A stretch of 64,000 nucleotides of DNA. It comes from Roseburia sp. Its GTDB lineage: Bacteria > Bacillota > Clostridia > Lachnospirales > Lachnospiraceae. The position numbers and the translations under genes were made by a program. The DNA is taken from positions 620,001 through 684,000 of the forward strand of contig JAGBEG010000010.1 in assembly GCA_017937095.1 (NCBI GenBank). Reading direction: 5' to 3'. The notes below the pieces were generated by a model. That model worked only from the letters and a program-made list of their open reading frames with translations. It did not search any database and had not been told where the DNA came from. Positions within the stretch are counted from its first letter, which is position 1, and each line of letters starts with the position of its first letter. Below are positions 38,275-58,388 of this stretch, piece after piece.

Positions 38275-40287
38275 TCATTCGCCCACTCCGACTTTGAAGT
38301 CAAACATCTCTTTTATTTTCATCAGATACCTTTCATGCTCCCCTGCTGCAGCAAGCATGGGAGCATAGGCGTCTCTTCCGCTGATCTGATTCATATGCGG
38401 ATAGTCCTTAAAATGCGCCTCATACTCCCGGATAAAATCAAGAATCCCTTTCTGTATCTGACAGATTCCCTCCTGATTGTAATCCATATCGCCAAAGCAA
38501 AGCTTCGTCTTTCCCTGCCCGTCCACGGCGAACCGCAGGAACTGCCTGGTCGGTGATGCAAGCAGCAACTCCCAGTATATATTGTAATCGCGATTCGGAT
38601 CGTGCGCTTTCCATAAATCGCGGTTCTGCGCCGACGAGTACATATAGGACACCAGTCTTCCCGACTGCAGAAACGCTTCACCCGCTTCCGTTTCCTCGTT
38701 GTGCGGCGTATTGGTTCCTGCGATTATCCCGGTCAGCCGACAGGGCAGGTTCCATTTGCGCTCCACCAGATAAGCCAGGGACATTGCGCCGCTCCCCGCC
38801 CAGCCAATGTCGACGGCACAGGCTCTCTTGCAGCCACAAAGCATCTGCGCGTAATATTCCCTTGCCGCGCTCTCCTGCTCCCCGTAGACCGCAAGTACCG
38901 TCTGCCATTGCTCCTCAAGGAAACGCTTGATCCTGCCTATATTTGACTCATCCAGAAAATCGGATTCCAAAAGCCCATCGGGCAGCGAGCCAAGCAGCAT
39001 GTCCAGATCCATTGCATGAAATATGTCCCTCAATGTTTTTCCCTGATTCACCTTATGAAAGAGAAATCGCCGGAAATAATCATAGCGGTTGTCCTGCGCC
39101 ATCAGCTTTGTGGCTGCCGCCCTCGACCAGCAGGCATACGCCGTCTGCACGCCCGGATACAGTAATTCATACGCCTGCTTTAAAATGTCTCCGTCCCTCG
39201 ACAGAAAAAGCAGCCGTTCCACTCCCTGTTCCCTGCAATAGCGGTGAATAAAGCTGCAATACCCCAGCACGAACAGTCCGCCATAGACATATCCGTACTC
39301 GTATGCCATCCCATAGCTTTCGATGCCATTGTACAGATGGTGATTGACGATTCCGCGGTAAGCGCCTCCAACGACCGGAGACATTTCCATGGCGCGGTAC
39401 GCTGCCGTCTTTCGGTCTGCATTCGGGTAATAATAAACGTCAAATCCATGCTTTTTTGCCATTTTCACGTCACTGTGCGGATTGTCTCCAATGTGCACGA
39501 CCGACACCCCATCGGGCAATTCGCGCTTTACCTTTGCAAACAACGTGCCGTCCGATTTGCCCGCTCCGTATTCACAGGAAACGCAGACCTTTTCTATTCC
39601 CTCATACCCCGCCTTTTTCAGCAGCTTTTTTATAAATGCAGAGGGAAGGTACATGTCCGATACGGCGATCATCTTTTTCCCCTGCTTTTGCAGCAGCCGG
39701 TACACCGAAAGCATATAGGGATTGGCATAACAGAATGCTTCCTCGCAGTCCAGCTCCGTCTGCATTCCCTGTTCCATGGAAATCCCTGTCTCGCGGGAGA
39801 GTTTTTCCCAGATTTCCGACAGCGTTACCTCTCCCTGCCCGTATCTGCTTCTTTTCTCTTCTCTCGCTTCCCGCTCGAAGCGCATCCGAAGCTCCTTAAA
39901 ATTGAGAAAAAGAAGCTTCTCCCCGACAAAGTAAAATAAATCTGTCGGACTCGAGAACGGCCGGAACAAAAGCGTATCAAATACGTCGAAGCTTATCACA
40001 TCATATCCCGCCAGAAACTCTGCAAGTTCCCCGGGCCGCATGACCTTTAAGACCGCAAGCTCCGATTCGCTTGCCCCGGTCGGAATGTGCTTCTCTTCCG
40101 TTATGCCCACAGCATTCTCCTGCCCGTGCAGCCTGCCTCCCGGCAGCCTGACCCGGATGTTTAACGCCAGCAGATAAAGCCATGACAGCGGCACTTTAAG
40201 CCCCGTCGCGTCATCGTGCATCCTGTGATAGCGCTCCCTTATTTCCGGGTATCGGTTTACAAGGAAATGATAGATTCTGTATCGCAT
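38275..40287 (-). CDS. HAD hydrolase plus RDG-module surface-glycan protein
   Basis: The 670-aa protein has an N-terminal region of about 95 residues, a HAD phosphatase-like domain (VISFDVFDTLLFRP about residue 97, IAVSDMYLPS, GAGKSDGTLF, VVHIGDNPHSD), and a C-terminal module with LLFLSRDGD (about 355) and AVDIGWAGSG (about 492). The same HAD-RDG layout recurs in the 1021-aa protein at 46014-49079. It resembles the COG5610-type HAD proteins of polysaccharide loci. ATG 40287 follows GCGGGAAG. Function unknown; glycan modification is inferred from context. Confidence 0.8.
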   Translation of the reverse strand: MRYRIYHFLVNRYPEIRERYHRMHDDATGLKVPLSWLYLLALNIRVRLPGGRLHGQENAVGITEEKHIPTGASESELAVLKVMRPGELAEFLAGYDVISFDVFDTLLFRPFSSPTDLFYFVGEKLLFLNFKELRMRFEREAREEKRSRYGQGEVTLSEIWEKLSRETGISMEQGMQTELDCEEAFCYANPYMLSVYRLLQKQGKKMIAVSDMYLPSAFIKKLLKKAGYEGIEKVCVSCEYGAGKSDGTLFAKVKRELPDGVSVVHIGDNPHSDVKMAKKHGFDVYYYPNADRKTAAYRAMEMSPVVGGAYRGIVNHHLYNGIESYGMAYEYGYVYGGLFVLGYCSFIHRYCREQGVERLLFLSRDGDILKQAYELLYPGVQTAYACWSRAAATKLMAQDNRYDYFRRFLFHKVNQGKTLRDIFHAMDLDMLLGSLPDGLLESDFLDESNIGRIKRFLEEQWQTVLAVYGEQESAAREYYAQMLCGCKRACAVDIGWAGSGAMSLAYLVERKWNLPCRLTGIIAGTNTPHNEETEAGEAFLQSGRLVSYMYSSAQNRDLWKAHDPNRDYNIYWELLLASPTRQFLRFAVDGQGKTKLCFGDMDYNQEGICQIQKGILDFIREYEAHFKDYPHMNQISGRDAYAPMLAAAGEHERYLMKIKEMFDFKVGVGE

Positions 40288-40598
40288 TTTTCTTCCCGCC
40301 TTTATCGTGTTTATAGCATATATTTTACTACTTTTTATAACTACATTCCACACCAATCTCTTCTATCGTATTCCCCACAAATATAGGTTTTTATTTTCCT
40401 TTTGTTTTTCAATGTTTTCTTTTTCCTGTTTCTCCTCACTTTTTTCATTTTTGTTTTTTATACTTCGAAATTCTTACATTATAAACGTATTTTTATTTCG
40501 CATTTTAAACATACTTTTAATATACGTTTGCATTGTGTTTTATGTGTTATGCAAATTAGCGATACTGTAATGTAGAAAATGGGGATTGGAGGATATTT
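40288..40598. promoter_or_regulatory. AT-rich divergent control region
   Basis: No gene. Three related boxes occur: AAACGTAT (40483-40490), AAACATAC (40507-40514) and ATACGTTT (40522-40529). A minus-strand TATAAT (40478-40483) adjoins the first and lacks a good -35. An inverted repeat TTTGCAT-N15-ATGCAAA lies just right of the boxes. The AAACGTA core also builds the 49-bp palindrome at 49152-49200, suggesting a common regulator for both HAD genes. Confidence 0.5.
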
Positions 40599-43934: not shown

Positions 43935-45980
43935 TCACGATTTGTTCCACGCATCATTTAATGCTTCAATTAACGTATCAATTTCACATGATACATCATA
44001 TTCGTTCCAATCCTTTTGCATTAAATCTATCAATCTATTCATGATCCACTTTCTGTCCGTCACCCCATGAGCCTTCTCCGATGTCCCCGCATCATATGTT
44101 ACCAGCATTACATTAGGAGATACTATATTTTTTCCATACCTTAATTCTTTAGTCCCGCCCAGCAATATTTCTATTTGCTTGATATCAATTGAACTTCTTA
44201 TGTTTTCCAGCAGTAGTATTTTTGACCTGCTCTCTGTAAGAATCATCTCTGTAATATCATTTCTTCCCAAAGCATCTTTCTCAAGACTGTTTCCTGTTAT
44301 CTTTTCAAATATCTTACTATAATGAAATTCTGATATTCTAAACTGCGCATTCCAAGCAATCGCACAACTTCCCTGAATCTTATTTGCACAGTATATTCCA
44401 GCATATCCGCCTGCTGAACTACCATAGAAAATAATATTCTCTCTCCTAATACTATTTTTCTGAGCAATTTTTTCTACAAGATCTATTACACAATCCAGAT
44501 AACAATGTTCTTCATTTCCATAATACCAACCTACCAGCAGCCCCTTATCTTCATATTCCTTATACATAGGGTCTGCTATGCACAAAACATTCTCCCTTAA
44601 ATATGATGAATACGACCATCTTTGAAATTCAGGAATACAATCCGTATTCACAATACCAGCGCTCAACAAAACCACAAGTCTGTCTGACTGATTATTTTTA
44701 TACATGATATCAATATCGGTGCTGCTATATCTTAGTGAATATCTCCCAGTAGAATAGTAGTCAAATTCATCTAATATAGGCAAAGCAGAAATCATTTTTA
44801 TATAATCATTCCCTTTTCTTCTTTGTTCTATTGCCTCGATATTACACTTGACAAACTCATGTTCCTCTTTTTTCTCTACATTACATTTAATCTTATTGAT
44901 ATCGTTCGCTAAAACTTTCTCTTCATACTCAAGCTTTCTCCGATTTGTGCCTGCAAATTGTAAGCAAGGAACACTTTCTGGAATAGAAATAGAATTGTCT
45001 TGTAAAAAATTAACAAATTCCGAAAAACACTGCGGATACCTACGGTTAAACTGAGAATAGTCTGCAAGATCATAATAATATTTAATGTCTTTCTCCCAAT
45101 CGAATTTTTCGAATGAAATTGTAGGCAGCATAAAATATGATGTTAATTCTCTTGTACGCGAATCAGATATTATGAACAGCGATTTTATATTATTCCATAA
45201 GCTAACTACATTACCGTGAAATCTTCCACCCATCGAGAAATCATACAAACAGGTTTCTCGCATCCATTCTTCCACCGAAAAAAAACACTTTTTTTCCTTT
45301 TTAAGCCATTGAGCAACCCAGGTATAATAAGCATCATCGTTAGCGTGTTTTGGTTCAAACTCGTGATTCGTCTGTTCTACAAATAAAGCATTTTGACCTG
45401 CGGAAAAAGACAAAAAACGTTTCTCAGCCCTATTAAGTGATCCGTAAAACGTTCTGAAATTGCATATGTAATTATTGGGATGCAAAATATTGTCCTCTAT
45501 CTTTAGCGCAGGATTATTCCAATAATACATAGATGGACATCCAATTACCGCGATATTCTTTATATCGTTCTTTTTTAATACTGCCGCAGTATAATCTCCT
45601 CGAACTCCCAACACTCCCCTCTCTTCCAGTCTTTTTAGCAGTGATATCGTCCGTTTACTAAATTTAAATTCCAAATCCAGGCTATTTGACTGTAAGCCAA
45701 TACTAATCGGGATAATCGGTCTCGTTGTCTTTTTTATCAGGCTCTCCAAAAAAGGAAAATTATCCCCTTCTCTAATCCATATTAAATCAGTAGTTATAAT
45801 TGCATCATATGAATCTAACGACACTCCTTTTTCCTCATAGTCATATGGTATTCTCTCTATAGGCAATATTCTCCTTAAAGCTGTCCAAAAGACATTATTC
45901 CCTGTATTATTTCCTATTTGCATAAATTTATGATCTGATGTAGCCTCTTCACTGACCACCGGATAGAACATTCCCAGCAT
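43935..45980 (-). CDS. Pyruvyltransferase-like/alpha-beta hydrolase fusion
   Basis: The 681-aa protein has an N-terminal polysaccharide pyruvyltransferase-like half (MQIGNNTGNNVF; GVLGVRGDYTAAVLKK; DFSMGGRFHGNVVSLWNNIKSLFI about 250-275) and a C-terminal alpha/beta-hydrolase-like half with the nucleophile elbow FYGSSAGGYAGIYCANK (about 515). The halves are joined by a charged segment (about 355-395). Such enzymes act on cell-surface sugars; ketal pyruvate addition and a hydrolase or acyltransferase step are plausible. ATG 45980 follows GGAGAG. It follows the GT2-HAD gene by 33 bases in the same AT-rich island. Confidence 0.78.
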   Translation of the reverse strand: MLGMFYPVVSEEATSDHKFMQIGNNTGNNVFWTALRRILPIERIPYDYEEKGVSLDSYDAIITTDLIWIREGDNFPFLESLIKKTTRPIIPISIGLQSNSLDLEFKFSKRTISLLKRLEERGVLGVRGDYTAAVLKKNDIKNIAVIGCPSMYYWNNPALKIEDNILHPNNYICNFRTFYGSLNRAEKRFLSFSAGQNALFVEQTNHEFEPKHANDDAYYTWVAQWLKKEKKCFFSVEEWMRETCLYDFSMGGRFHGNVVSLWNNIKSLFIISDSRTRELTSYFMLPTISFEKFDWEKDIKYYYDLADYSQFNRRYPQCFSEFVNFLQDNSISIPESVPCLQFAGTNRRKLEYEEKVLANDINKIKCNVEKKEEHEFVKCNIEAIEQRRKGNDYIKMISALPILDEFDYYSTGRYSLRYSSTDIDIMYKNNQSDRLVVLLSAGIVNTDCIPEFQRWSYSSYLRENVLCIADPMYKEYEDKGLLVGWYYGNEEHCYLDCVIDLVEKIAQKNSIRRENIIFYGSSAGGYAGIYCANKIQGSCAIAWNAQFRISEFHYSKIFEKITGNSLEKDALGRNDITEMILTESRSKILLLENIRSSIDIKQIEILLGGTKELRYGKNIVSPNVMLVTYDAGTSEKAHGVTDRKWIMNRLIDLMQKDWNEYDVSCEIDTLIEALNDAWNKS

Positions 45981-46013: not shown

Positions 46014-49000
46014 TCATTTTTTTCTAATTCCTGTTTTTATACGCTTTTTCAGAAACGCCCTATCATTGAATAGCCAAAATATGAATTTTGATAATGAACT
46101 CTTCTTTTCCATACCCTTCTGCTTATACAACTCCCAGGCATAATTTATATCTTTGGGCTGTACTTCCCGGTAAACCAGCTTTTCAACATATTCTGTCCGC
46201 GTTTTATAGTATCCCAGCAGTCTATGATAATTTATGTTTTCTCTCCACTGCTCTGGCAAAAAAATTGTCCCGCCAGCCCACATATCATCCTCAAAAGACA
46301 CACAGTCAAATATTTTCAGATCCTCTTGTTCAAGATACGCCAGCATATGCTCAAATGGATATGATATTTCAATATTTCTCATATACATCTGATCAAAGTA
46401 CTTTCCGAATATTGAACAATATTCCCTTACAAAATCAAGTGCTGAACTTTGTATTTCTCCCACCAGATATGTAAAAGGATATTCATATTCTGATTTTTCA
46501 AATTCAGGATTCACTATACCGTTTTTTACGGAATATCCCGTACATGATGGCTGTAAAGCGGAAAACAGCAATTCCCTCTGCGCTCCTGTTATTGATGGTG
46601 TAAAGTCATAAAAAGGTATGACTTCAAATCCATATTCTTTCTCGCGCTTACAACACTCTTCATCATTTTTATGAATATAAAAACCATCGACCGCTTTCCC
46701 AGTAACCTTATAAATCATTTCCTGCGTGCGTCCACTATATCCGATATCAACAAGCGCGGAGTTATCTGTAAAAACAGAATCAAAATAATTTTTCACGGAT
46801 TTATTGTAATTTCTCGCTTTTTCAGCATTGAAACACTTTTTTATAACATTATTAATGAAGTCACAATACTCTTCGAAGTTTGTAATCCTTTTATCCAGAA
46901 TGCTCTTCTCCATCCGCTTTGTATTGGCATCCATAATAATAACCGGCTGAAACATTTTTATTAACTCAGCACCTGTTAATTTTCTTGCGCTCAACGCTTC
47001 ATATAATGTGTACAAATCTTCATATCTTTCAATTCCACATAACAGCGCTGCCTTTCTTGACGTGTAGAAATATTCCGTTTTGACTGCAGGCATCATCACA
47101 TGCTCTGCTAACACTTCAAAGGCTTTCAACGGAAGATATCCGTCACGCGCAATAAAAACTAATTTATCATATCCATTTTTCTGCACATATTCTGAAATCC
47201 ATTTAACCACCCCTAAAAGATGTAGTCCCAAAGCAAGCCTTCCGAAAAACTGAGGAGACGCATTCATTTCAGACCATTCGTTATATGAATAAAAAGGCAT
47301 ATCATATAATTTATTTGCTGCGACCGCAATAGCACATCTGTTTCCAAGATAATTCAAGCTTTTTTGAAAATTAATCAGACTGTTGTTTTTTCCATTATAC
47401 GAACTAATCGCATGCGTTGTTTTCACATCTGATATACCAAAGCTTAAACACTCAATCGTTTTAGGGTAGAAAGCTGTTCTATAACCTTCATTTCGTGCAT
47501 TTAAGACATCGTCCTGCCAATTATCTCCTATATGCAATATCCTTTCTGCTGATATTTCAAGCTCGTTCTTTACCTTTTTATATAATGTCCCGGTTCTCTT
47601 AGAAGCTTTTTGTTCACACGAAACATATATATGATCAAATGAAGTATATCCGTTTTTTTTCAAAATACGAATTAAATCTTTAACTCCGATATACATATCA
47701 GACACAAAAATAATCTTTTTCTTAAGGCAAAGCGCCAGCTTGTACAGGTTAAAGATACTTTCTCTCCTCGTTAATAGTTCTTCTTCCAACGCAATTTCAG
47801 CATTTTTCATTTTTAGTAAATCATCTTTACTAATAGCAACCAAAGAAAAAATTTCATCATATATATCGTCTATAGTTATATCCTCGACGGGTTCCTTTGC
47901 ATCATATATTTTTCTTTTTCTGATCGCCTTCTCTGCTTCTTCTCTGATTTTTGAAAACAGAATCCCAGAATATGGATTGATTTTTTTATACTTTTTGTCC
48001 AACAATTTAAACAAATCAGAGGGGCTGTAAAGAGGACGCATCAATGCCGTATCAAATATATCAAATGATACTACCGTCACATCGTCGGAAGCAATCGTAT
48101 CTATTAGCTTTTCATACCTATTATCATATTTTGTTGCTGCACTGTAAAAGTATCCCGGAAACTTTGGAATATCATTTGATAAGAAGGCATTATTCAGCAT
48201 CGCAATACAGCTAGTTTTATCGCTCTCCAAAAGATTTGAATTAATGACATTTTGAGTCCAGAAATATTTGTATAGTGCTTCCCATCGTCTGTAGTGCCCA
48301 ATTATTTTCTCATTTGCAGAATTATCATTCAAAAAATTTCTTACAAAATCAAATGATAGTATAAGGTCCCCAATATTTTTTTTCATTTTTTTAGGGTCAT
48401 CGTTCAAAGCTGTCGATGCATTTGAATTACGATAATAATAATACCTGGCATATTTCACGCATTCCAGCTTTTGTGCGAAGAAAAACAAAACGGATGAAAA
48501 TACAAAATCTTCACACATTATCAAATGCTCTTTTTGAAGATCCAATATCGGGTATGCCTTTTCCCAAATTGTCCTTGAGTATAATTTATTCCATACAGTA
48601 TGCCATGTAAAATTCTGCCCCTCCTGCATCCAATATGACTCATATATTTTTTCACCTGATATACAGCCATATTCAAAATCTTCATATAGATTCTGAATCC
48701 ATTGATAACCAGTCTCATCTTCTTGAACAAGCTTTGCAACAACAATATCCGACTTCGTCGATTCTGCTTTTTCTAAAAGGTTTCTATAATAATCAATCGA
48801 TATATAATCATCGGAATCCACGAAACCGATATAGTCGCCTGACGATGCCTTTACCCCCGTCATCCGCGCTCTAAATAATCCACAGTTCTTTTCATGATCA
48901 ATCAGTTTTATTCTGGAATCTGTGTCAGCCATTCTTAACACAATATCTCTTGTGGAATCTATTGAGCCATCATTTACAACAATTATCTCTATCTGTGAAT

Positions 49001-49079
49001 ATGTTTGTCTTATTATGCTATTAAGACATTTTTCTATCGTTTTCTCAACATTGTATGCCGGAACAATAATTGATACCAT
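46014..49079 (-). CDS. GT2 glycosyltransferase-HAD-RDG fusion protein
   Basis: The 1021-aa protein has a GT2 domain (SIIVPAYNVEKTIEKCLNSI, DGS, and DSDD about residue 88), a HAD domain (VVSFDIFDTALMRP about 337, FVSDMYIGV, SKRTGTLY, LHIGDNWQDD), and a C-terminal module with LVFIARDGYL (about 640) and ALVDIGYSGRTQE (about 775). It is soluble and presumably acts on lipid-linked or surface glycans at the membrane. ATG 49079 follows AAGGAG at somewhat long spacing. The promoter is covered by a 49-bp perfect palindrome. HAD and RDG parts are paralogous to the 670-aa protein at 38275. Confidence 0.88.
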   Translation of the reverse strand: MVSIIVPAYNVEKTIEKCLNSIIRQTYSQIEIIVVNDGSIDSTRDIVLRMADTDSRIKLIDHEKNCGLFRARMTGVKASSGDYIGFVDSDDYISIDYYRNLLEKAESTKSDIVVAKLVQEDETGYQWIQNLYEDFEYGCISGEKIYESYWMQEGQNFTWHTVWNKLYSRTIWEKAYPILDLQKEHLIMCEDFVFSSVLFFFAQKLECVKYARYYYYRNSNASTALNDDPKKMKKNIGDLILSFDFVRNFLNDNSANEKIIGHYRRWEALYKYFWTQNVINSNLLESDKTSCIAMLNNAFLSNDIPKFPGYFYSAATKYDNRYEKLIDTIASDDVTVVSFDIFDTALMRPLYSPSDLFKLLDKKYKKINPYSGILFSKIREEAEKAIRKRKIYDAKEPVEDITIDDIYDEIFSLVAISKDDLLKMKNAEIALEEELLTRRESIFNLYKLALCLKKKIIFVSDMYIGVKDLIRILKKNGYTSFDHIYVSCEQKASKRTGTLYKKVKNELEISAERILHIGDNWQDDVLNARNEGYRTAFYPKTIECLSFGISDVKTTHAISSYNGKNNSLINFQKSLNYLGNRCAIAVAANKLYDMPFYSYNEWSEMNASPQFFGRLALGLHLLGVVKWISEYVQKNGYDKLVFIARDGYLPLKAFEVLAEHVMMPAVKTEYFYTSRKAALLCGIERYEDLYTLYEALSARKLTGAELIKMFQPVIIMDANTKRMEKSILDKRITNFEEYCDFINNVIKKCFNAEKARNYNKSVKNYFDSVFTDNSALVDIGYSGRTQEMIYKVTGKAVDGFYIHKNDEECCKREKEYGFEVIPFYDFTPSITGAQRELLFSALQPSCTGYSVKNGIVNPEFEKSEYEYPFTYLVGEIQSSALDFVREYCSIFGKYFDQMYMRNIEISYPFEHMLAYLEQEDLKIFDCVSFEDDMWAGGTIFLPEQWRENINYHRLLGYYKTRTEYVEKLVYREVQPKDINYAWELYKQKGMEKKSSLSKFIFWLFNDRAFLKKRIKTGIRKK

Positions 49080-49342: not shown

Positions 49343-51268
49343 TCATCCGTCTCTGTTCTCCCGATACGCCCGACACACCTCCCGGGGCTCGCCCTCCATC
49401 CGGAGCACGCCCTTTTCAATCCAGACGACCTTCGTACAATTGTCTACAATCGTCTGCATGGAATGCGACACCATAAGCACCGTCGCACCGCCATGAATCA
49501 TTTCCTTGATCCGCGCAAGGCTCTTCTTGCGGAAAAATTCGTCGCCGACGCTTAAGACTTCATCCAGAATCAATATTTCCGCCGTCTCGCCTGCCGTTGC
49601 AATGGCAAAGCCAAGCCTTGAAACCATACCGGAGGAAAAATTGCGCACTTTCTCCTCCATGAAGCCTTCCAGCTCCGCAAACGCGACGATCTCATCATAG
49701 TGTGCATCCAGAAATTCTCTGGTATGACCGATAATCGCACCGTTTAAGTACACATTTTCGCGCGCCGTCAGCTCCATGTCAAAGCCTGTGCCAAGCGTCA
49801 GAAGCTGCAGCTTTTTCCTGTCCACCGCAACCTTTCCCGAGGTCGGCGAGAGCGCGCCGGAGACAATCTTAAGCAGCGTGCTCTTTCCCGATCCGTTCGT
49901 CCCGATGATTCCTACGATTTCCCCCGGATAGACCCGAAAGCTCACGTCCGAAAGCGCCAGCAGTTCCCGGTAACTCACCTGACGCTTCATTAGCTGGATC
50001 AGATACTCCTTGATGCCGGATACATTCTGCGTCGCGATCCGGAAACGCATCGTCACGTGTTCAACGGAAATGACGGGCGCGCCCTTCTGGTAATTCTCCT
50101 GCGCCTCCTCATACCAGCTCCGTATCTCTTCCTCCGTCACATCCAAAGAAAGATCCTCCACAAAGTCATCCGAAGCCTTCTGCGTCTTTGCCGTTATTTT
50201 CTTTTGCTGCCTTCTTTTTCTCCGGTCGGCGGTGATTGTGGCAAACACTGCGGCAATCATCAGAACGATTGCTGTCCCAAGCACCACGATCAGCTTCCGG
50301 TTCTGCCTTTTGATCGCCTGCTCGCCCTCGTTTGGTTTCCATTCCAGAAGCTCGTTGTCTGCGCCAAGCCGGTAGAAGCCGCACTGCCCGCTCATATCCA
50401 TCGCATAGACGATAAATTCACTGCGCACCGCATCCAGCGTCAGTTCTTCCGGCCAGTTCTCACAGACCGCAGGCGACATATAATAGTATTTCGTCCCGTT
50501 TGTCACAAGGGAATTGCAGGGATAGAGCTGCTTTGCACTCTCACTGTAGGCATACAGGGAAAGCCTGCCGTCTGCATCCGCCAGATAGAGGAACTTCACC
50601 GTCTGCATGGAATTGGTCAGCCATGTGACTTCTGTGTCGCCGAACGTTCCCGAAAGCTTCTCATACTGCCAGTCCGTTTCCTCCGGGATATAAGATGCCG
50701 CATCCACAATGTAAGCTGCCGCTCCGTCCGTCTCGATTTCCGCTAAGACAGGTACGCCGCCTGCGACGGGTACTTCCGCTTCCTCTGTCTCCTCTGCCTC
50801 CTGCTCCGCCGCAATGTCTTCGCCTTCAATATAGACCGGCGCCGTCGCAAGCGTTGTGACGTCAAATCTCTCCGCCGTCTCTCCGTCCTGCGCCGCCGTC
50901 TCGATCACCGCATTCTCTACCGTTACCTCTGCCGTTCCTCCGCTCTTCGTGTGAAAGCGCAGCATATATTTGACCTGATTGTGCAGGCCCACACCCTCGA
51001 GCGTGATAACGCCGTCCTCTTCGCCATCCCCGCCTCCCAGATAAGTAAGCCTTGAGGTATCGTAGGCAAGCTCCACATGATACGCGCCGATTGGCGCATC
51101 CCCGTTTAAATAGACGCCAATCGGAAATTCCTCATTATCGGTGGCACGGTAATAATTGGAACCGAAGGTCACCGTCGCTTCCCCGGCAGACACCGGTTCC
51201 GGGTATACAAGCAGCGCAGCAATGCACAAAAGCAGCGCCAGAAAGCTTCTCTTCCTCTTTTTGTTCAT
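49343..51268 (-). CDS. ABC ATPase fused to secreted cohesin-like domain and TM helix
   Basis: The 641-aa protein has an N-terminal signal peptide (to about residue 28), an extracellular cohesin-like beta domain (NEEFPIGVYLNGDAPIGAYHVELAYD, LTYLGGG), an acidic linker and a second extracellular region, one transmembrane helix (about 325-347), and a cytoplasmic Wzt/TagH-type ABC ATPase with IGTNGSGKST (about 455), NFSSGM signature, LILDEVLSVGD and the switch His in VSHSM. It energises glycan export with the ABC-2 permease encoded upstream. ATG 51268 follows GGAGAGG. The ectodomain-ATPase fusion is unusual for such exporters. Confidence 0.88.
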   Translation of the reverse strand: MNKKRKRSFLALLLCIAALLVYPEPVSAGEATVTFGSNYYRATDNEEFPIGVYLNGDAPIGAYHVELAYDTSRLTYLGGGDGEEDGVITLEGVGLHNQVKYMLRFHTKSGGTAEVTVENAVIETAAQDGETAERFDVTTLATAPVYIEGEDIAAEQEAEETEEAEVPVAGGVPVLAEIETDGAAAYIVDAASYIPEETDWQYEKLSGTFGDTEVTWLTNSMQTVKFLYLADADGRLSLYAYSESAKQLYPCNSLVTNGTKYYYMSPAVCENWPEELTLDAVRSEFIVYAMDMSGQCGFYRLGADNELLEWKPNEGEQAIKRQNRKLIVVLGTAIVLMIAAVFATITADRRKRRQQKKITAKTQKASDDFVEDLSLDVTEEEIRSWYEEAQENYQKGAPVISVEHVTMRFRIATQNVSGIKEYLIQLMKRQVSYRELLALSDVSFRVYPGEIVGIIGTNGSGKSTLLKIVSGALSPTSGKVAVDRKKLQLLTLGTGFDMELTARENVYLNGAIIGHTREFLDAHYDEIVAFAELEGFMEEKVRNFSSGMVSRLGFAIATAGETAEILILDEVLSVGDEFFRKKSLARIKEMIHGGATVLMVSHSMQTIVDNCTKVVWIEKGVLRMEGEPREVCRAYRENRDG

Positions 51269-51311: not shown

Positions 51312-52100
51312 CTATAACTTCTGCATCACAAGATTTTCGTTTTTGCGGAACACAGAATAACCGACCGCAAAGCTTACGATTCCCCAGCCTGCCATCTGGA
51401 TGAGCCGCACCGGTTCGGGCCAGCGCTGGTAGAGCACCGCATCTCTCGCGACAGAAATATACGCATAGACCGGGTTGCTGCCAATGACCTTCTGCATAAG
51501 CTCCGTTGTGCTTTCATACGGATAAAAAATCGCTGACATATACATCCATAATGTCAGAATAATGGAATACAGATATTTCACATCTGCAAAAAACACATAC
51601 AGAATTGAGAGAAGATAGCCGATTCCCATAGAAAAGAGCAAAAGGAAAAAGACGTCGACCACAAACAGCAGCATCGTCACGGACGGGCGGATACGAAACA
51701 CGAACAGCATCAGCACATAGGCGATACAGACATATCCGAAATTGGTAAGCGCCGCATACGTCCGCGCCAGAACGAAGGTCTGCTTCGGAAGCTTTACCTT
51801 TAGAAGAAGCGTCTGATTGTCCACAAGCGCCGTCATTGCCGCGTTGGTCGCTCCGGAAAAGAACTGCCAGATAATCTGTCCTGTCAGATAATAGATCGGG
51901 AAATTTTCAATCGAACGCTTGAAGATGGTCGTGAAAATCATCGACATCACAGCCATCGTCATCAGCGGATTTAAAACGCTCCACAAAATTCCCAGGAAAG
52001 AGCGCGCATATTTTCGCTTGATTTCCCTGCCGACCAGTTCCCTGATCACAAAATAGTATTGTCTTATTTCCTCTCTGTTTCCTGCTCCCGCACTCTTCAT
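51312..52100 (-). CDS. ABC-2 polysaccharide export permease (Wzm/TagG-like)
   Basis: The 262-aa protein has the amphipathic N-terminus with ELVGREIKRKYARSFLGILWSVLNPL, six membrane segments and FADVKYLYSIILTLWMYMSAIFYP, characteristic of ABC-2 exporters of teichoic acid or O-antigen type. It pairs with the ATPase encoded 43 bases downstream. ATG 52100 follows GGAAGGATTGG; translation is probably coupled to the minicistron at 52097-52144 through ATGA. Confidence 0.92.
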   Translation of the reverse strand: MKSAGAGNREEIRQYYFVIRELVGREIKRKYARSFLGILWSVLNPLMTMAVMSMIFTTIFKRSIENFPIYYLTGQIIWQFFSGATNAAMTALVDNQTLLLKVKLPKQTFVLARTYAALTNFGYVCIAYVLMLFVFRIRPSVTMLLFVVDVFFLLLFSMGIGYLLSILYVFFADVKYLYSIILTLWMYMSAIFYPYESTTELMQKVIGSNPVYAYISVARDAVLYQRWPEPVRLIQMAGWGIVSFAVGYSVFRKNENLVMQKL

Positions 52101-52183
52101 CGAAACCAATCCTTCCATGACTTTCTGATGTATACAAAATTCATCAAAACCAATCCTTCCATGACTTTCTGATGTATACAAAA
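52096..52183. repeat. 44-bp tandem duplication of a start region
   Basis: Units at 52096-52139 and 52140-52183 differ at one base. Each holds, on the minus strand, the end of the RDG gene, GGAAGG and an ATG. Both copies encode FVYIRKSWKDWF. Confidence 0.9.
52097..52144 (-). CDS. 15-aa minicistron linking RDG and permease genes
   Basis: ATG 52144 overlaps the RDG gene stop (TGATG) and its own TGA overlaps the permease ATG (ATGA at 52097-52100). It encodes MNFVYIRKSWKDWFR. It exists because of the 44-bp duplication and would pass ribosomes from one gene to the next. It has GGAAGG upstream. Whether the peptide itself matters is unknown. Confidence 0.5.
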   Translation of the reverse strand: MNFVYIRKSWKDWFR

Positions 52184-53511
52184 TACTTGTAGCAGCGCAC
52201 ATGCCGCAGATATCTGCGTACCTGCCTGCCGCCCGCTGCGATGCTCCCCTCTGCCCAGCCGCGCTCTGCGGTCTTCTCGCCCGTCATGCCAAGCTTTGAC
52301 GCCATTTTTCTGACAAAGTTCTGGGAGCGCAATTCCTTCTCCGAAAACGGCTCGCCCACACATTTCAGACGCTCCTCCAGCACATCATCTGAAAAAAGAT
52401 ATGCCCCGTAACACTCCGCCTCTTTTCGCACAGGTTTTCCCATCAGCCGCGTGAGCAGTTCTTCTACAAAAGGAGTCTTGTCTGCATCAAATGTCCGGTT
52501 TTGTTTTATCTGTGTGCAGTAGGCGTGCACATAGCATTGCAGCGCCGCTGCATTCTGTATCAGACGGGTTCCGTTCGGGTTTTGTTTTCCTCCGGTCACA
52601 GGCCGTATGCAGTCTCCTCTTCCGGTATACCCCGTCGTCATCCCCACAGGCTCCGAGAACACGCACTCGAACAGGCAATTGGAAAAATACGCCTTTCTCT
52701 TAAGTCCGCTTCCGGGCGAAAAATAAAACGCCTGATAGCCTTCATGCGACTTTCCCGGCAGTTCGTAAAGCCCAAAATAATAGCCGCAAAGACGGATTCC
52801 GGGCTTCTTTTGGGAGAGCAGCAGGATTAAGGTCTGCTGCATCGTCCCTGTCCATCCGCTGTCCACAAGCGCATAGGGAATATCCTCGAGAAGTCCCTCC
52901 TGCGCGAGATAACGCATGGTTTCCCCATACGCTTTTCTTGAATGCGCATCGACACAGTCCAGGAAAAACGGTGTGTCCGAAAGCCTCTCCTTTAAGGAGA
53001 TAAGCTCCGTCCGCGTAAGACGCTCCCTTCTCCTTTCCTCATAGCCGAGCATTCTTGACAAGACATTTGTCTCTTCCTCTGTCAGCGCCGCACGTTTTGA
53101 CAACGTTTCAAACGTGACATTCATGCCGTCAAGACAGATCTGTTCGACGCATGTCCTCCCCATAAGGTGATATGAGGGAATCCGCAGCGCATAGCGCGAA
53201 ATGCGCAAATACCTTATGTCAATTGGGATTCCTCTCGCTTCGGCAAGCTTCTGCGCGGTAAGATACATCTGCCATCCGTCCCGCGCCAGAAAGTAAAGGC
53301 GCTGTTTCCCTGACGCTTTCGCCTCCTTTAGCACCCACTCCACATACGCCGTCATCACCGGGGCGAACACATGCAGATAAAGCTCTGTGTGCAGACCGCA
53401 GTTCTGATATTTCGTAAGGCTCTCGCAAAGAGCGTTATAATACACCGGATTTTTCTGTAAGCTCCGCCTGTAGCTGCGGATTCTCTGTTCCAGCCGTCTG
53501 CTTTCTTCCAT
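52144..53511 (-). CDS. Standalone RDG-module protein
   Basis: The 455-aa protein carries LYFLARDGWQMYLTAQKLAE (about residue 72) and YALVDSGWTGTMQQTL (about 217), the same two blocks found in the C-terminal parts of the 670-aa and 1021-aa HAD proteins, but no HAD domain. It is encoded between GT2 and the exporter permease, so a role in making or finishing the exported glycan is likely. Start 53511 gives a 77-base overlap with the GT2 gene; a later start would cut the conserved N-terminal region. Confidence 0.8.
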   Translation of the reverse strand: MEESRRLEQRIRSYRRSLQKNPVYYNALCESLTKYQNCGLHTELYLHVFAPVMTAYVEWVLKEAKASGKQRLYFLARDGWQMYLTAQKLAEARGIPIDIRYLRISRYALRIPSYHLMGRTCVEQICLDGMNVTFETLSKRAALTEEETNVLSRMLGYEERRRERLTRTELISLKERLSDTPFFLDCVDAHSRKAYGETMRYLAQEGLLEDIPYALVDSGWTGTMQQTLILLLSQKKPGIRLCGYYFGLYELPGKSHEGYQAFYFSPGSGLKRKAYFSNCLFECVFSEPVGMTTGYTGRGDCIRPVTGGKQNPNGTRLIQNAAALQCYVHAYCTQIKQNRTFDADKTPFVEELLTRLMGKPVRKEAECYGAYLFSDDVLEERLKCVGEPFSEKELRSQNFVRKMASKLGMTGEKTAERGWAEGSIAAGGRQVRRYLRHVRCYKYFVYIRKSWKDWF

Positions 53512-54334
53512 ACTTATATCCCGCTTCCTTCCGCTTCATAAAAGCCACCAGCGCATACGGCAGCAGACCGCCGAGCAGCGGACGCAGACAATAGAGCCAG
53601 CCTGACGGGAACAGCATATGCATCGCCTTAAAGTTCCTGTAGCGAAGCCTCATCTCAGCCTTTCTGAAACAGAATTTCCGTCTTTGAAACGACGCCGTAT
53701 CTTCTCTGTAGCAGAACAGAAATTGCTGAAGATTATATCCCCTGTAGCCCGACTGATGCAGTCTCATGAAAATCTCATAGTCCTCACACCGCAGCGTCTC
53801 CTCCGACACCTGATAGCCGTCATTTTTTTCAAAAAGCTCCCTCCGGTACATGACGGTGGGATGGATGAACGGAGAAAACGGAAGATAGTCCCTGTCCGAC
53901 GGGCATTCCGGCATAAAACGCGCGCCCCAGACCCCGGATGCGTCAAAAAGCTTCGCATTGCAGCCGCACCACGCATATTCCGGATGCGCCTCCATAAATT
54001 CATACTGCGCCAGAAGCCGTCCCGGCAGTGCGATATCGTCCGCGTCCATCCGCGCGATATATCTCCCCTTTGCCCGTTTGATGCAGGCATTCAGAGAAAA
54101 TGCAAGACCATGATTTTCTTCCCTGCCGATCAGCACGATCCGCTCGTCAAGTGTTCCCAGCTCCCTGATGTAACCGGCTGCCTCCTCATCAGAGCCGTCA
54201 TCGTAGATAATAAACTCAAAATCACGGAAGGTCTGGTCTAAAACTGACGCCACCGCATCATGCAGCGCCTTCCTGTCCCATTGGTTATACACTCCCATAA
54301 CGACGGAAATCTCCGGTTCATATGCATGTTTCAT
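53435..54334 (-). CDS. GT2-family glycosyltransferase
   Basis: The 299-aa GT-A enzyme has SVVMGVYNQWDRKALHDAVASVL, IYDDGSDEEAAGYI, the DxD motif in YIARMDADDIALPGRL, and CEDYEIFMRLHQSG near the catalytic base. A C-terminal hydrophobic helix (about 250-270) may bind the membrane. It transfers an activated sugar to a growing surface glycan. ATG 54334 overlaps the GT4 gene by 17 bases. Confidence 0.92.
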   Translation of the reverse strand: MKHAYEPEISVVMGVYNQWDRKALHDAVASVLDQTFRDFEFIIYDDGSDEEAAGYIRELGTLDERIVLIGREENHGLAFSLNACIKRAKGRYIARMDADDIALPGRLLAQYEFMEAHPEYAWCGCNAKLFDASGVWGARFMPECPSDRDYLPFSPFIHPTVMYRRELFEKNDGYQVSEETLRCEDYEIFMRLHQSGYRGYNLQQFLFCYREDTASFQRRKFCFRKAEMRLRYRNFKAMHMLFPSGWLYCLRPLLGGLLPYALVAFMKRKEAGYKYGRKQTAGTENPQLQAELTEKSGVL

Positions 54335-55487
54335 GCTCTCCGCTCCACTCCCTGTCCACCTCGCCGTAAATACGGCGCATAATTTTATCCGTTGCCTCTA
54401 TACTAAAGCGCTCCGCCGTCTGCCTGCAGCCCTCTGCAAGCTGCCGCCGCAGCGAAACGGATTCTTTTAACCTGCATATAGCGTTTGCAAAATCCTGCTC
54501 GCTGTTCGCATCGCACACGATGCCGTTTCCGCCGTCGCGCACATACTCCCTTGTGCCCCTGTTATCCGCCGCAATCATCGGCACCTCACACGCCAGTGCT
54601 TCGATCGCCGCGATTCCAAGTCCCTCCCGCTTAGACGGAAACGCAAAGCAGTCCGCGCTTTGCAGCACCTCGGCCACGTCCGTCCGGTAACCGAGAAGCC
54701 TCACCCTTTGCTGCAAACCGAGCGCTTTTATTTCCTCCTGCAACTGGGGTTCCAGCGGTCCGCTCCCGCAGATACTGTAATAAATATCATTTCCGCCAAG
54801 CCGGGCGATTGCCCGTATGACCGCCTTATGGTTCTTATTTTCATTCAGCTCCCCGACAGATACCACATGAAACGCCCCTTCGGGAAGCGCGAGTTCCCGC
54901 CGTTTTCCGGGACGCAGTTCCTCTATTTTTCGAAATTTTGCAATATCGACCCCGACTCCCGGAATGTATTCCACCTTACCCCCGCGTCGAAGCCCGAATC
55001 GTTTTGCATTCTCGTAATCTTCATGATTGATTGTAATCAGCCTGTCCGTACAATGCGCCAGAAGCCGTTCCGCCGTACCGTAAAGCAGCCGGTTTTTCTT
55101 TGGCGCTCCCTTATAAAAATGAAAACCGTGCGCCGTATAGATCACGCAGACCTTCCGCCTGCACAAAAGCGCCGCCAGTCTCCCCAGCACGCCGCCCATC
55201 GGATTGTGGCAATGCACCAGCCGAATCTGTTCCTTCTTTATAATCTTTCTGAGTTTCAGACACGCTCCCGCGTTTTTTATCACGTGAAAGGGACTTTTGC
55301 AGATATCAATATGATGCAGCACCAATCCCATTTCCTGTAATTTCTTTTCATCAATGTCATAGACAGGATTTTTAAAATTTGATGCATAGTGTACCGTGTA
55401 GCCGTTTTCCTGCAAAATTTTTACATCATTCATTTCAAACTGCGGAAGAAAACCGCCTATCGTTGTAATTATCAATGCATGTTTCAT
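54318..55487 (-). CDS. GT4-family glycosyltransferase
   Basis: The 389-aa GT-B enzyme starts MKHALIITTIGGFLPQFEM, contains VHCHNPMGGVLGR, IYTAHGFHFYKGAPKKNRLLY, and the C-terminal donor-binding segment FPSKREGLGIAAIEALACEVPMIAADNRG. It resembles the EpsD/CapM-type enzymes of capsule clusters. ATG 55487 follows CAGGATG at fair spacing. First of two glycosyltransferases in the export operon, 142 bases after the surface protein gene. Confidence 0.92.
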   Translation of the reverse strand: MKHALIITTIGGFLPQFEMNDVKILQENGYTVHYASNFKNPVYDIDEKKLQEMGLVLHHIDICKSPFHVIKNAGACLKLRKIIKKEQIRLVHCHNPMGGVLGRLAALLCRRKVCVIYTAHGFHFYKGAPKKNRLLYGTAERLLAHCTDRLITINHEDYENAKRFGLRRGGKVEYIPGVGVDIAKFRKIEELRPGKRRELALPEGAFHVVSVGELNENKNHKAVIRAIARLGGNDIYYSICGSGPLEPQLQEEIKALGLQQRVRLLGYRTDVAEVLQSADCFAFPSKREGLGIAAIEALACEVPMIAADNRGTREYVRDGGNGIVCDANSEQDFANAICRLKESVSLRRQLAEGCRQTAERFSIEATDKIMRRIYGEVDREWSGEHETCI

Positions 55488-55629: not shown

Positions 55630-56247
55630 TTATGCTCTTTTTCTGTTTACACAGATCAGAGCCGCACCGCAGAAAAGCGCTGTGAATGCCAGAACATTCA
55701 TGCCTGCGTCTGCTGTCTTAGGAGATGTCACTCCTGTAGATGCAGATGAAGCTGCGCTGCTGTCCGTGCTGCCGGACTGACTGTCAGAGCTGCCGGATGC
55801 TGTATCTACCGTTGCAAATACAACCGGAGATAAGGATGTAAAGGTAACCCATACCTCGCTGCCCTTCCATGTGCAGTCAAGTTTCTCCCAAGTTCCGTCT
55901 GCCTTCTGATGCAGTGCAACAAGCGCTGTTCCTTCCATAACATCAGAAATTGTAAATGGAATCGAAATCGGATTTGACGCGGAAACTTCTATCGGAACTT
56001 TAACATCATATGCCTTTAATACCTGGCTGTTAGCGCCGACAAGTTCCTTCGCCTTCTCCTGCGCAACCGCAGTTGTCGCAGAATCAAGCTTAACAACGTC
56101 AATTTCATCTGCCGAAAGAGTACTGCCATCCGCAAGGGTTGCAGTACCGACTGTTACATCTGCGCTCGGGCTTACTGCCGCAAATGCGGTCACACTCATT
56201 CCAAGTGTCAGAATAAATGCTAATGCTGTTGTGATAACTTTCTTCAT
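55630..56247 (-). CDS. Sortase-anchored surface protein (SPKTA type)
   Basis: The 205-aa protein has a signal peptide ending in AFAAVSPSA (cut near residue 24), a secreted domain with SNPISIPFTISDVMEGTALV and WTEKL-like strands, a Ser/Thr-rich linker (SGSSDSQSGSTDSSAASSAS), and a C-terminal sorting signal: SPKTADAG, a hydrophobic helix and NRKRA. It should be anchored to the wall by the sortase encoded upstream. ATG 56247 follows GGGAGG. It may be a glycan carrier or matrix protein, by context only. Confidence 0.82.
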   Translation of the reverse strand: MKKVITTALAFILTLGMSVTAFAAVSPSADVTVGTATLADGSTLSADEIDVVKLDSATTAVAQEKAKELVGANSQVLKAYDVKVPIEVSASNPISIPFTISDVMEGTALVALHQKADGTWEKLDCTWKGSEVWVTFTSLSPVVFATVDTASGSSDSQSGSTDSSAASSASTGVTSPKTADAGMNVLAFTALFCGAALICVNRKRA

Positions 56248-56325: not shown

Positions 56326-57432
56326 TTAATCCTCTTCCGGAATATAGAATATATCCAGAATCATCTCATAGAGGGCGTCCTCGTCTACGTGGTATTCCTC
56401 ATAGACCTCACCCTTTTCCTGCTCCCCGGCAACGATATAAAAGCTATCCTCCGAAAAGCTGCAATTTAACGCCGCTGTGGCAAGATAGGTAATCTCTCCC
56501 GCCGTAACGTCCGTAACCATATATTCCGATAGCTCGCCGTAAATCGTAAGCGGCAGCGTGATATCGCTCTTCATCGCCTGGATTGCCTGTCCCATAAATG
56601 CGAGCAGATATTGCTTCTGTCTCGCAAGGCGCTTGACTGCGCTGTAATCCTCATTCTCGTTACGCGCCTGCACATACAGACGCGCCTCATCCCCCATCAG
56701 GGTGACCGTCTCGCCTTCCTTGTACATGCTCCCGTAATCTTCCTCTAAATCCTCAAGCGCGGTAAGCGTAACTCCGCCCACTGCGTCATTTACCACGCCG
56801 ATCGCATTCATATTGATTGCCGCGCAGGCGTGGATCGGAAGCTGGTACATCAGATTAGACACCGCTTTCTCCATCATCTCGCAGCTTAGCATTGCCCCGT
56901 CACCGTAGGCGTACTGCAGCGCAAGCTGTGCCTCCACCGTGTTGTAATACTGCCCCGACAAATCATAAACGTCAATTCTCGTCATCGTGTCTCTGGGAAT
57001 GGCAATGACGCTCATTTTCTGGTTCGCCTCATCGATCACCAGCAGGAAAATCGCGTCCGCCTGTCCGCTGTTTCCGAGTGTTTCATTCTTCTTAAGCGTG
57101 TCCTCCCTGCTGTCTACACCGATACAGAGGATTGTCGTAAGTTCCTCATTATAACGGTACTTCTGCCCGTTATGATAGACGACGCCCTCTTCCTCAAAGC
57201 CTGTTTCCGTGTCCGCGGCAAGCACCGGGGCGGCGTTTGCTATATTTTTCTTTAAACTGGACTTTCCGGCCGCACGCAGAACAAAAAAGCCTGCCACTGC
57301 GGCGATTACCAATATGATCAGCGCAATGACGATTCCAAGCGCAATCTTATACCCTTTTCCTTTCAGCCCGCCGCCGGTTTGGGTTTTTACATTTGTATTT
57401 GTATTCGGTTTTTTCTTCGCCCTAGTTTTCAT
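56326..57432 (-). CDS. LytR-CpsA-Psr (LCP) family glycopolymer ligase
   Basis: The 368-aa protein has a basic N-terminal tail, one membrane helix (about 30-55), and an extracellular LCP domain with TILCIGVDSRED, GQADAIFLLVIDEANQKMSVIAIPRDTMTRID, VGGVTL and MGDEARLYVQAR. LCP enzymes transfer lipid-linked glycopolymers to peptidoglycan. ATG 57432 overlaps the sortase gene by 11 bases. It matches the exporter and glycosyltransferases downstream: synthesis, export and wall attachment in one operon. Confidence 0.92.
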   Translation of the reverse strand: MKTRAKKKPNTNTNVKTQTGGGLKGKGYKIALGIVIALIILVIAAVAGFFVLRAAGKSSLKKNIANAAPVLAADTETGFEEEGVVYHNGQKYRYNEELTTILCIGVDSREDTLKKNETLGNSGQADAIFLLVIDEANQKMSVIAIPRDTMTRIDVYDLSGQYYNTVEAQLALQYAYGDGAMLSCEMMEKAVSNLMYQLPIHACAAINMNAIGVVNDAVGGVTLTALEDLEEDYGSMYKEGETVTLMGDEARLYVQARNENEDYSAVKRLARQKQYLLAFMGQAIQAMKSDITLPLTIYGELSEYMVTDVTAGEITYLATAALNCSFSEDSFYIVAGEQEKGEVYEEYHVDEDALYEMILDIFYIPEED

Positions 57433-58297
57433 CTGCAAGCACCTCATCTGTAAGAACCGCTACAACAAGAAAACGTTTGTCATCCTCTCCCTTTATGCAG
57501 GTGGACAATGTGAGCAGCTTATCCTGCGCCGTCACTTCCAGTTCCTCCCGGAACAGGTCTGTCATGCTCCTGCCCTCCTTCAGCGAATCCGCAAACCGCT
57601 CTAAATCCGCCGCGCTGTCAAAATCATAGCTGCCCATGATGTGAAGATCGCTATAAGTCACCGCCGCATAGATCCGGTACACAAAAGTCTTCTCCGGCGT
57701 CACCACATAGACGTCCTCGTGCGCATCAAAAAACGCATCGTTCTCAAATTCATGCAGTGACCCGAACATCGTCCCGTTTTTCATGTTATGTCCGTAAAGC
57801 ACCGTGTTCGCATCGCAAAAATCCGCCGCATTGCACGGCTCCATATAGATAGCTCCCGGAAGCCCTGCTGCTTTCTCCACCGTGTGCTGCAAATAATAGT
57901 CGTCATACGGATTCTGCGCTTCCTCCCTGCGCAGCACCGGATAATTCACCTGCGTTCCCGGAATGCATATCCACGCGCAGATGTCCGTATTGGTCTCCTT
58001 AAGCGTCTGAAAATCCACTTCCGGCAGCCCTTCATATGTATTTGCTGCGGTCTCTGTGCTGTCTGCCGCCTCTGTGCTGCCTGCCGCCTCTGTCGTCTCT
58101 GGCTCTGCCCGCTCTGCAGATACGGCTGTCTCTCTCATGTTCTCATAGACAGCTTCCTCCTGCTTCCGGCGTACCGCATGAAAAATCATCAGAATCACGC
58201 AGACGAGCAGCACGATTGCCAGAATCGCAGATATTACCTTTTTCGTAGTTCTATTTGTACTTTTATTTGTATTTCTATTTGTATTTCCTTTTCTCAT
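57422..58297 (-). CDS. Class B sortase
   Basis: The 291-aa protein has an Asn/Thr-rich cytoplasmic tail, a membrane helix (about 20-42), a variable Ala/Glu/Thr linker (repeats of STEAADSTETAAN) and a class B sortase domain: ICIPGTQVNYPVLR, catalytic His in TVLYGHNMKNGTMF, Cys in LLTLSTCIKG and Arg in DDKRFLVVA. It would cleave the SPKTA signal of the surface protein encoded two genes later. ATG 58297 follows GGAG; first gene of the operon, behind the promoter at 58359-58388. Confidence 0.94.
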   Translation of the reverse strand: MRKGNTNRNTNKSTNRTTKKVISAILAIVLLVCVILMIFHAVRRKQEEAVYENMRETAVSAERAEPETTEAAGSTEAADSTETAANTYEGLPEVDFQTLKETNTDICAWICIPGTQVNYPVLRREEAQNPYDDYYLQHTVEKAAGLPGAIYMEPCNAADFCDANTVLYGHNMKNGTMFGSLHEFENDAFFDAHEDVYVVTPEKTFVYRIYAAVTYSDLHIMGSYDFDSAADLERFADSLKEGRSMTDLFREELEVTAQDKLLTLSTCIKGEDDKRFLVVAVLTDEVLADEN

Positions 58298-58358: not shown

Positions 58359-58388
58359 ATTTTATGCATATCTGTCGAATTATGTCAA
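58359..58388 (-). promoter_or_regulatory. Promoter of the sortase-glycan operon
   Basis: TTGACA (58383-58388), 18-bp spacer and TAAAAT (58359-58364) on the minus strand, about 55 bases before the sortase ATG. No operator symmetry is obvious. Confidence 0.65.

Follow-up and report, generated by a model that had tools for sequence, protein, structure and literature searches.

The fused chain and its domains

The stretch analysed here, hereafter the window, comprises 64,000 nucleotides of contig JAGBEG010000010.1 (positions 620,001 to 684,000, assembly GCA_017937095.1) from Roseburia sp., a member of the Lachnospiraceae. Positions 49343-51268 of its reverse strand form a single open frame, with a good ribosome site ahead, encoding one protein in which a signal peptide, a cohesin-fold domain, a further ectodomain labelled ECTO2, a transmembrane (TM) helix and an ATP-binding cassette (ABC) ATPase follow one another (Table 1). 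The original prediction, made from the sequence of this stretch, had placed a glycan-type exporter ATPase and a cohesin-like ectodomain in one chain, and this was supported by the domain matches and by the whole chains of relatives described below.

The ABC ATPase occupies the final 240 residues of the protein (ABC_tran E 3.9e-21). The solved structures nearest to it are O-antigen-type chains and teichoic-acid TagH/TarH chains (E 3.8e-47 to 6amx), TagH being the usual name of the ATPase subunit of TagGH, and the nearest NCBIfam models are likewise of the O-antigen/TagH type, with scores under the model cut-offs. The Walker A, Walker B and signature motifs were kept in all 46 fusions examined, that of the window included. 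A Pfam scan of the fusion protein found no Wzt_C (PF14524), and 45 relatives stop 3-18 residues past the ATPase model; two ordinary Wzt paralogs in the same genome (L042 and L043) both match Wzt_C. Nor was the TagH order, with TM helix and ectodomain behind the ATPase, found in the fusion protein, where the order is reversed; NCBIfam PRK13545 aligned to it only at model positions 6-236 of 549, under cut-off.

The protein displayed the sequence features of an N-out/C-in (type I) membrane protein: a signal-type N-terminus, called by eye and hydropathy without a signal-peptide predictor, a TM helix and a basic inside flank. The charge rule held in the window protein and in 44 of the 46 fusions, and an N-terminal hydrophobic core was present in 40 of the 46. 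The chain is thus predicted to cross the membrane once, with the ectodomains outside and the ATPase inside, which bears out the earlier suggestion that the ectodomain is placed where something outside could be held. The linker between TM helix and ATPase varied from 28 to 201 residues (median 65, 45 fusions).

The cohesin-fold domain is predicted from structural matching to be a cohesin beta-sandwich. Its top structural matches were protein-docking modules, not carbohydrate-binding ones. Glycoside hydrolases of C. perfringens carry non-cellulosomal cohesins (2vo8, 2jh2, 2w1n) that share 11-14% identity with the window domain and, unlike it, do not belong to a transporter. In the Pfam scan the window ectodomain did not reach the cut-off of PF00963, and a permease-borne relative (locus L172) exceeded it with 26.4 vs 24.1 bits. 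Positions Y, F and G of the domain were invariant across 13 aligned rows. For ECTO2, a search among solved structures returned no match. Models of both domains were built from the window and the fetched relatives together, fused and free kinds alike; the cohesin profile matched 178 of 397 family genomes at E 1e-4.

Occurrence of the fusion in relatives

Relatives of the first 400 residues were detected in 15 of the 144 other related genomes searched. Among them were whole chains of 652 and 637 residues, with 59% and 50% identity. A scan with the ATPase segment of the clade, one genome per species across 84,980 species, gave 231 relatives, the best 80 of which were kept for classification. On a hydropathy threshold and first-start open reading frames (ORFs), these 80 were classed as cohesin-TM-ATPase (n = 45), ECTO2-ATPase (n = 2, one cut by a contig end), TM-ATPase (n = 13) and ATPase alone (n = 17); two more were cut by contig ends and one was without an ORF. 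On these rough classes 30 of the 80 close ATPases are without an ectodomain. The start positions of the ATPase-alone rows L124, L158 and L163 are doubtful, L099 resembles the TM rows, and the genes in L121 and L135 are interrupted, each preceded by a cohesin piece. The collections overlap (L105/L027, L133/L030 and L120/L082, among others, lie on the same contigs), and counts from them are not additive. By their record titles, the relatives belong to Pseudobutyrivibrio, Roseburia, Butyrivibrio, Mediterraneibacter, Eisenbergiella, Eubacterium, many uncultured Lachnospiraceae and a few other Clostridia. The one-chain fusion is confirmed as real and common to many relatives.

Modules on ATPase and permease

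The ectodomain modules were not confined to the ATPase. They were found on the permease in 6 of the 80 loci, as cohesin-ECTO2-permease in L120, L133, L144, L168 and L172 and as ECTO2-permease in L110. In L172 a cohesin-ATPase adjoins the cohesin-bearing permease; in the other five the modules sit on the permease instead of the ATPase. Permease-borne modules also turned up in G034 and G158, the same contigs as L133 and L120. When the cohesin label was mapped on a quickly made ATPase tree (22 of 76 inner branches starred), 15-16 changes were counted against a shuffled mean of 25.9, and none of 500 shuffles was as low; the starred branches alone force at least 8 changes. By these counts the module is passed down by descent, yet its gain, loss or relocation has been frequent.

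Free cohesins and dockerins

On contig C11 of the same genome (L192:2784-7213), the sole dockerin protein, with SH3, GW, Cadherin-like and Dockerin domains by Pfam, has as its next neighbour behind it a free cohesin/ECTO2 membrane protein (cohesin–Cadherin-like–ECTO2–TM), after which comes a Clp ATPase gene. In the genome search the free cohesin scored 26.8 bits to PF00963, over the cut-off; the protein scan, run at E 0.001, did not report it. A dockerin was held by 25 of 50 chosen cohesin genomes. In 15 of the 17 dockerin stretches fetched, the own genome included, a cohesin/ECTO2 gene came directly after the dockerin, with ECTO2 alone over threshold in five of them (L177, L179, L181, L183, L184); the two exceptions came from G008 and G014, in each case as a second dockerin locus. 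A Clp-like gene came next in about ten stretches, judged by gene start and Pfam-checked only in the own genome. Because this adjacency recurs, the dockerin and the free cohesin/ECTO2 protein are likely a non-cellulosomal surface cohesin-dockerin pair. Among 12 fusion genomes, six gave no dockerin match and the other six held the dockerin beside a separate cohesin/ECTO2 gene, so that the fused cohesin may bind something other than a dockerin.

The operon and neighbouring genes

From the sortase gene to the fusion gene the intergenic gaps are −26, 78, 142, −17, −77, −59 and 43 nt, followed by a gap of 263 nt, behind which the gene at 46014 perhaps starts a second transcription unit. A 44-bp tandem duplication (97%) at 52096-52184 covers the last part of ARDG and the first part of the permease gene; the true permease start may lie inside the listed frame, moved by the duplication. 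No Pfam or NCBIfam family over cut-off was found for ARDG.

Table 1. Features at the fusion locus, all on the reverse strand.
Feature	Position	Strand	Basis
Fusion gene, signal peptide–cohesin-fold–ECTO2–TM–ABC ATPase, 641 residues	49343..51268	-	
Signal peptide, residues 1-28 (basic start, hydrophobic core, V-S-A)	51185..51268	-	sequence inspection, hydropathy
Cohesin-fold domain (predicted), residues 29-150	50819..51184	-	
ECTO2, residues about 168-314, mostly beta	50327..50767	-	
Single TM helix, residues 327-345, basic stretch behind	50234..50290	-	hydropathy
Wzt/TagH-type ATPase domain, residues 400-636	49361..50071	-	Pfam, PDB, NCBIfam matches
ABC-2 type permease, partner subunit	51312..52202	-	PF01061 E 4.5e-12
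Conserved operon protein, working label ARDG	52144..53511	-	synteny
GT2 glycosyltransferase	53435..54334	-	PF00535
GT4-type glycosyltransferase	54318..55487	-	PF00534
Secreted surface protein, SPKTA sorting-type signal	55630..56247	-	
LCP-family glycopolymer transferase	56326..57447	-	PF03816 E 2.4e-19
Class B sortase	57422..58297	-	PF04203; TIGR03064 E 1e-47, over cut-off
GT2 + HAD-type protein	46014..49079	-	HAD-type stretch over TIGR01549 cut-off
Promoter-like TTGACA-18-TAAAAT, upstream of sortase gene	58359..58388	-	consensus scan only
Promoter-like site, perfect consensus, in 263-nt gap	49204-49175	-	consensus scan only

The gene order GT4-GT2-ARDG-permease-fusion was present in the window and in nine other genomes, one of which (L032:7330-9609) has ARDG and permease as one chain; in L028 and L077 two permease genes lie behind the fusion gene instead. 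In the 37 loci of full 20-kb length to which an ATPase was assigned, GT2 was found in 37, GT4 in 36, ARDG in 34, the permease in 33, LCP in 25, HAD-ARDG (the kind of 38275-40356) in 24, and SPKTA and sortase in 15 each. Based on its content and its recurrence, the operon is read as one that exports a wall or capsule glycan.

The SPKTA protein family was detected in 49 of the 397 family genomes at E 1e-10. Of 54 places, 27 sortase-LCP-SPKTA loci were examined, and seven of these contained a cohesin gene within the stretch. The other 20, several of them cut by contig ends, had no cohesin gene in the fetched stretch, so the cassette does not need one. A second SPKTA-LCP-sortase set lies in the own genome (L203, G000 C14:163447-164178), with neither exporter nor cohesin gene detected in the 19.5 kb fetched.

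Elsewhere in the window, 38275-40356 encodes a conserved protein with no Pfam family over cut-off and a HAD-type stretch over the TIGR01549 cut-off, and 43935-45980 a polysaccharide pyruvyl transferase domain, behind which the C-terminal part weakly resembles peptidase_S9, under cut-off. On the R. inulinivorans contig (L030/L133) several operon genes are in pieces, and an extra cohesin-TM protein adjoins them, with a sub-cut-off Listeria-Bacteroides repeat match behind its TM helix.

Discussion

The function of the fused protein may be depicted as follows. It would serve as the ATPase subunit in an exporter made of permease and ATPase, by which a finished, lipid-linked wall or capsule glycan is moved outward. 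With a single membrane crossing, the cohesin-fold socket and ECTO2 would lie outside and the motor inside, on a flexible tether. We infer that the outside domains serve as a docking arm for an extracellular partner, perhaps a protein on the wall side or the glycan as it emerges. A partner held beside the exporter exit might bring export and wall attachment to one place, the putative attachment step being that of the LCP protein and the sortase-anchored SPKTA protein. The one chain, the predicted cohesin fold, the adjoining permease, the conservation and the interchange between ATPase and permease were computed directly; the reading as a whole, with an outer docking arm acting as a tether and not as an ATP-coupled gate, has in our judgement an even chance of being correct.

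The ectodomain might also be an outside carbohydrate-recognition domain for the exported glycan, in place of the cytoplasmic Wzt_C. Such a replacement would suit the lack of a C-terminal domain in the window ATPase and its 45 relatives beside Wzt paralogs that have Wzt_C, and the domain that B. subtilis TagGH carries outside is SH3b-like, of a kind said to bind wall polymers (PMC11466899). With protein-docking modules as the top structural matches and so many close ATPases lacking an ectodomain, however, we consider this rather unlikely. Sensing of the glycan or of a surface protein by the outer domain, which would gate ATP hydrolysis across the membrane, follows the original prediction, and the single TM helix does join the outside and the motor in one chain. 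Modules that also occur on the permease, ATPases that do without them, long cytoplasmic linkers and repeated label changes on the tree nevertheless argue for tethering, and gating seems improbable; it is the mobility of the module together with the median inside linker length that leads us to favour the tether.

Docking of the dockerin-bearing SH3/Cadherin-like wall protein by the fused cohesin, drawing that protein to the exporter, would fit the position of the own genome's one dockerin match beside the free paralog, and the models match fused and free cohesin/ECTO2 alike, though they were built from both kinds. It is nonetheless quite improbable, as half of the fusion genomes gave no dockerin match and in the others the dockerin has its own cohesin/ECTO2 neighbour; the dockerin protein as a wall enzyme is itself only a reading of its domains. 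The TM-ATPase relatives (13 of 80) would allow the ectodomain to be neutral, anchoring the ATPase at the membrane or spacing it, but the invariant Y, F and G positions and the wide retention of the module make this very improbable.

The system is filed as a variant of the Wzm/Wzt-TarGH-type exporters. With Wzm/Wzt O-antigen exporters it shares the match of its ATPase to 6amx and an ABC-2 type permease, and it differs from them by the absence of a C-terminal Wzt_C and by extra domains that are outside and N-terminal. An outside domain on an exporter ATPase is already known: the ATPase subunit of the B. subtilis wall teichoic acid exporter TagGH, printed in the source as TagG, has one TM helix and an extracellular SH3b-like domain (PMC11466899). 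The earlier claim, by which such a domain is cytoplasmic in known exporters, is therefore not supported. The order there is ATPase-TM-ectodomain, whereas in the window the signal peptide, cohesin and ECTO2 precede the TM helix and the ATPase. In the published literature nothing was found on a cohesin fold in an exporter, on N-terminal placement or on ATPase/permease interchange.

To our knowledge, the handover of lipid-linked glycans from Gram-positive exporters to the wall-fixing enzymes is poorly known. A docking module that is built into the exporter and can swap between motor and channel would offer a way to pull out the partner, and it would bring cohesin modules to a transporter. More speculatively, Lachnospiraceae might build an envelope machine from a cellulosome-type cohesin plug-and-socket, interchangeable on motor and channel, plus ECTO2 of a possibly unsolved fold, with export, lipid-carrier release and wall attachment in one complex; we regard this wider proposal as possible but doubtful.

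Two described systems resemble the sortase-LCP end of the operon. In the srtB4 capsule cluster of M. gnavus, sortase B-type and LCP genes are both required for capsule display (PMC13121745), a parallel by description only to 56326-58297 of the window; unlike the window, neither exporter nor cohesin is named in the accessible text of that source. In A. oris, the LCP enzyme LcpA glycosylates the wall-anchored protein GspA (PMC6381275), which offers an analogy only for the LCP-SPKTA pair.
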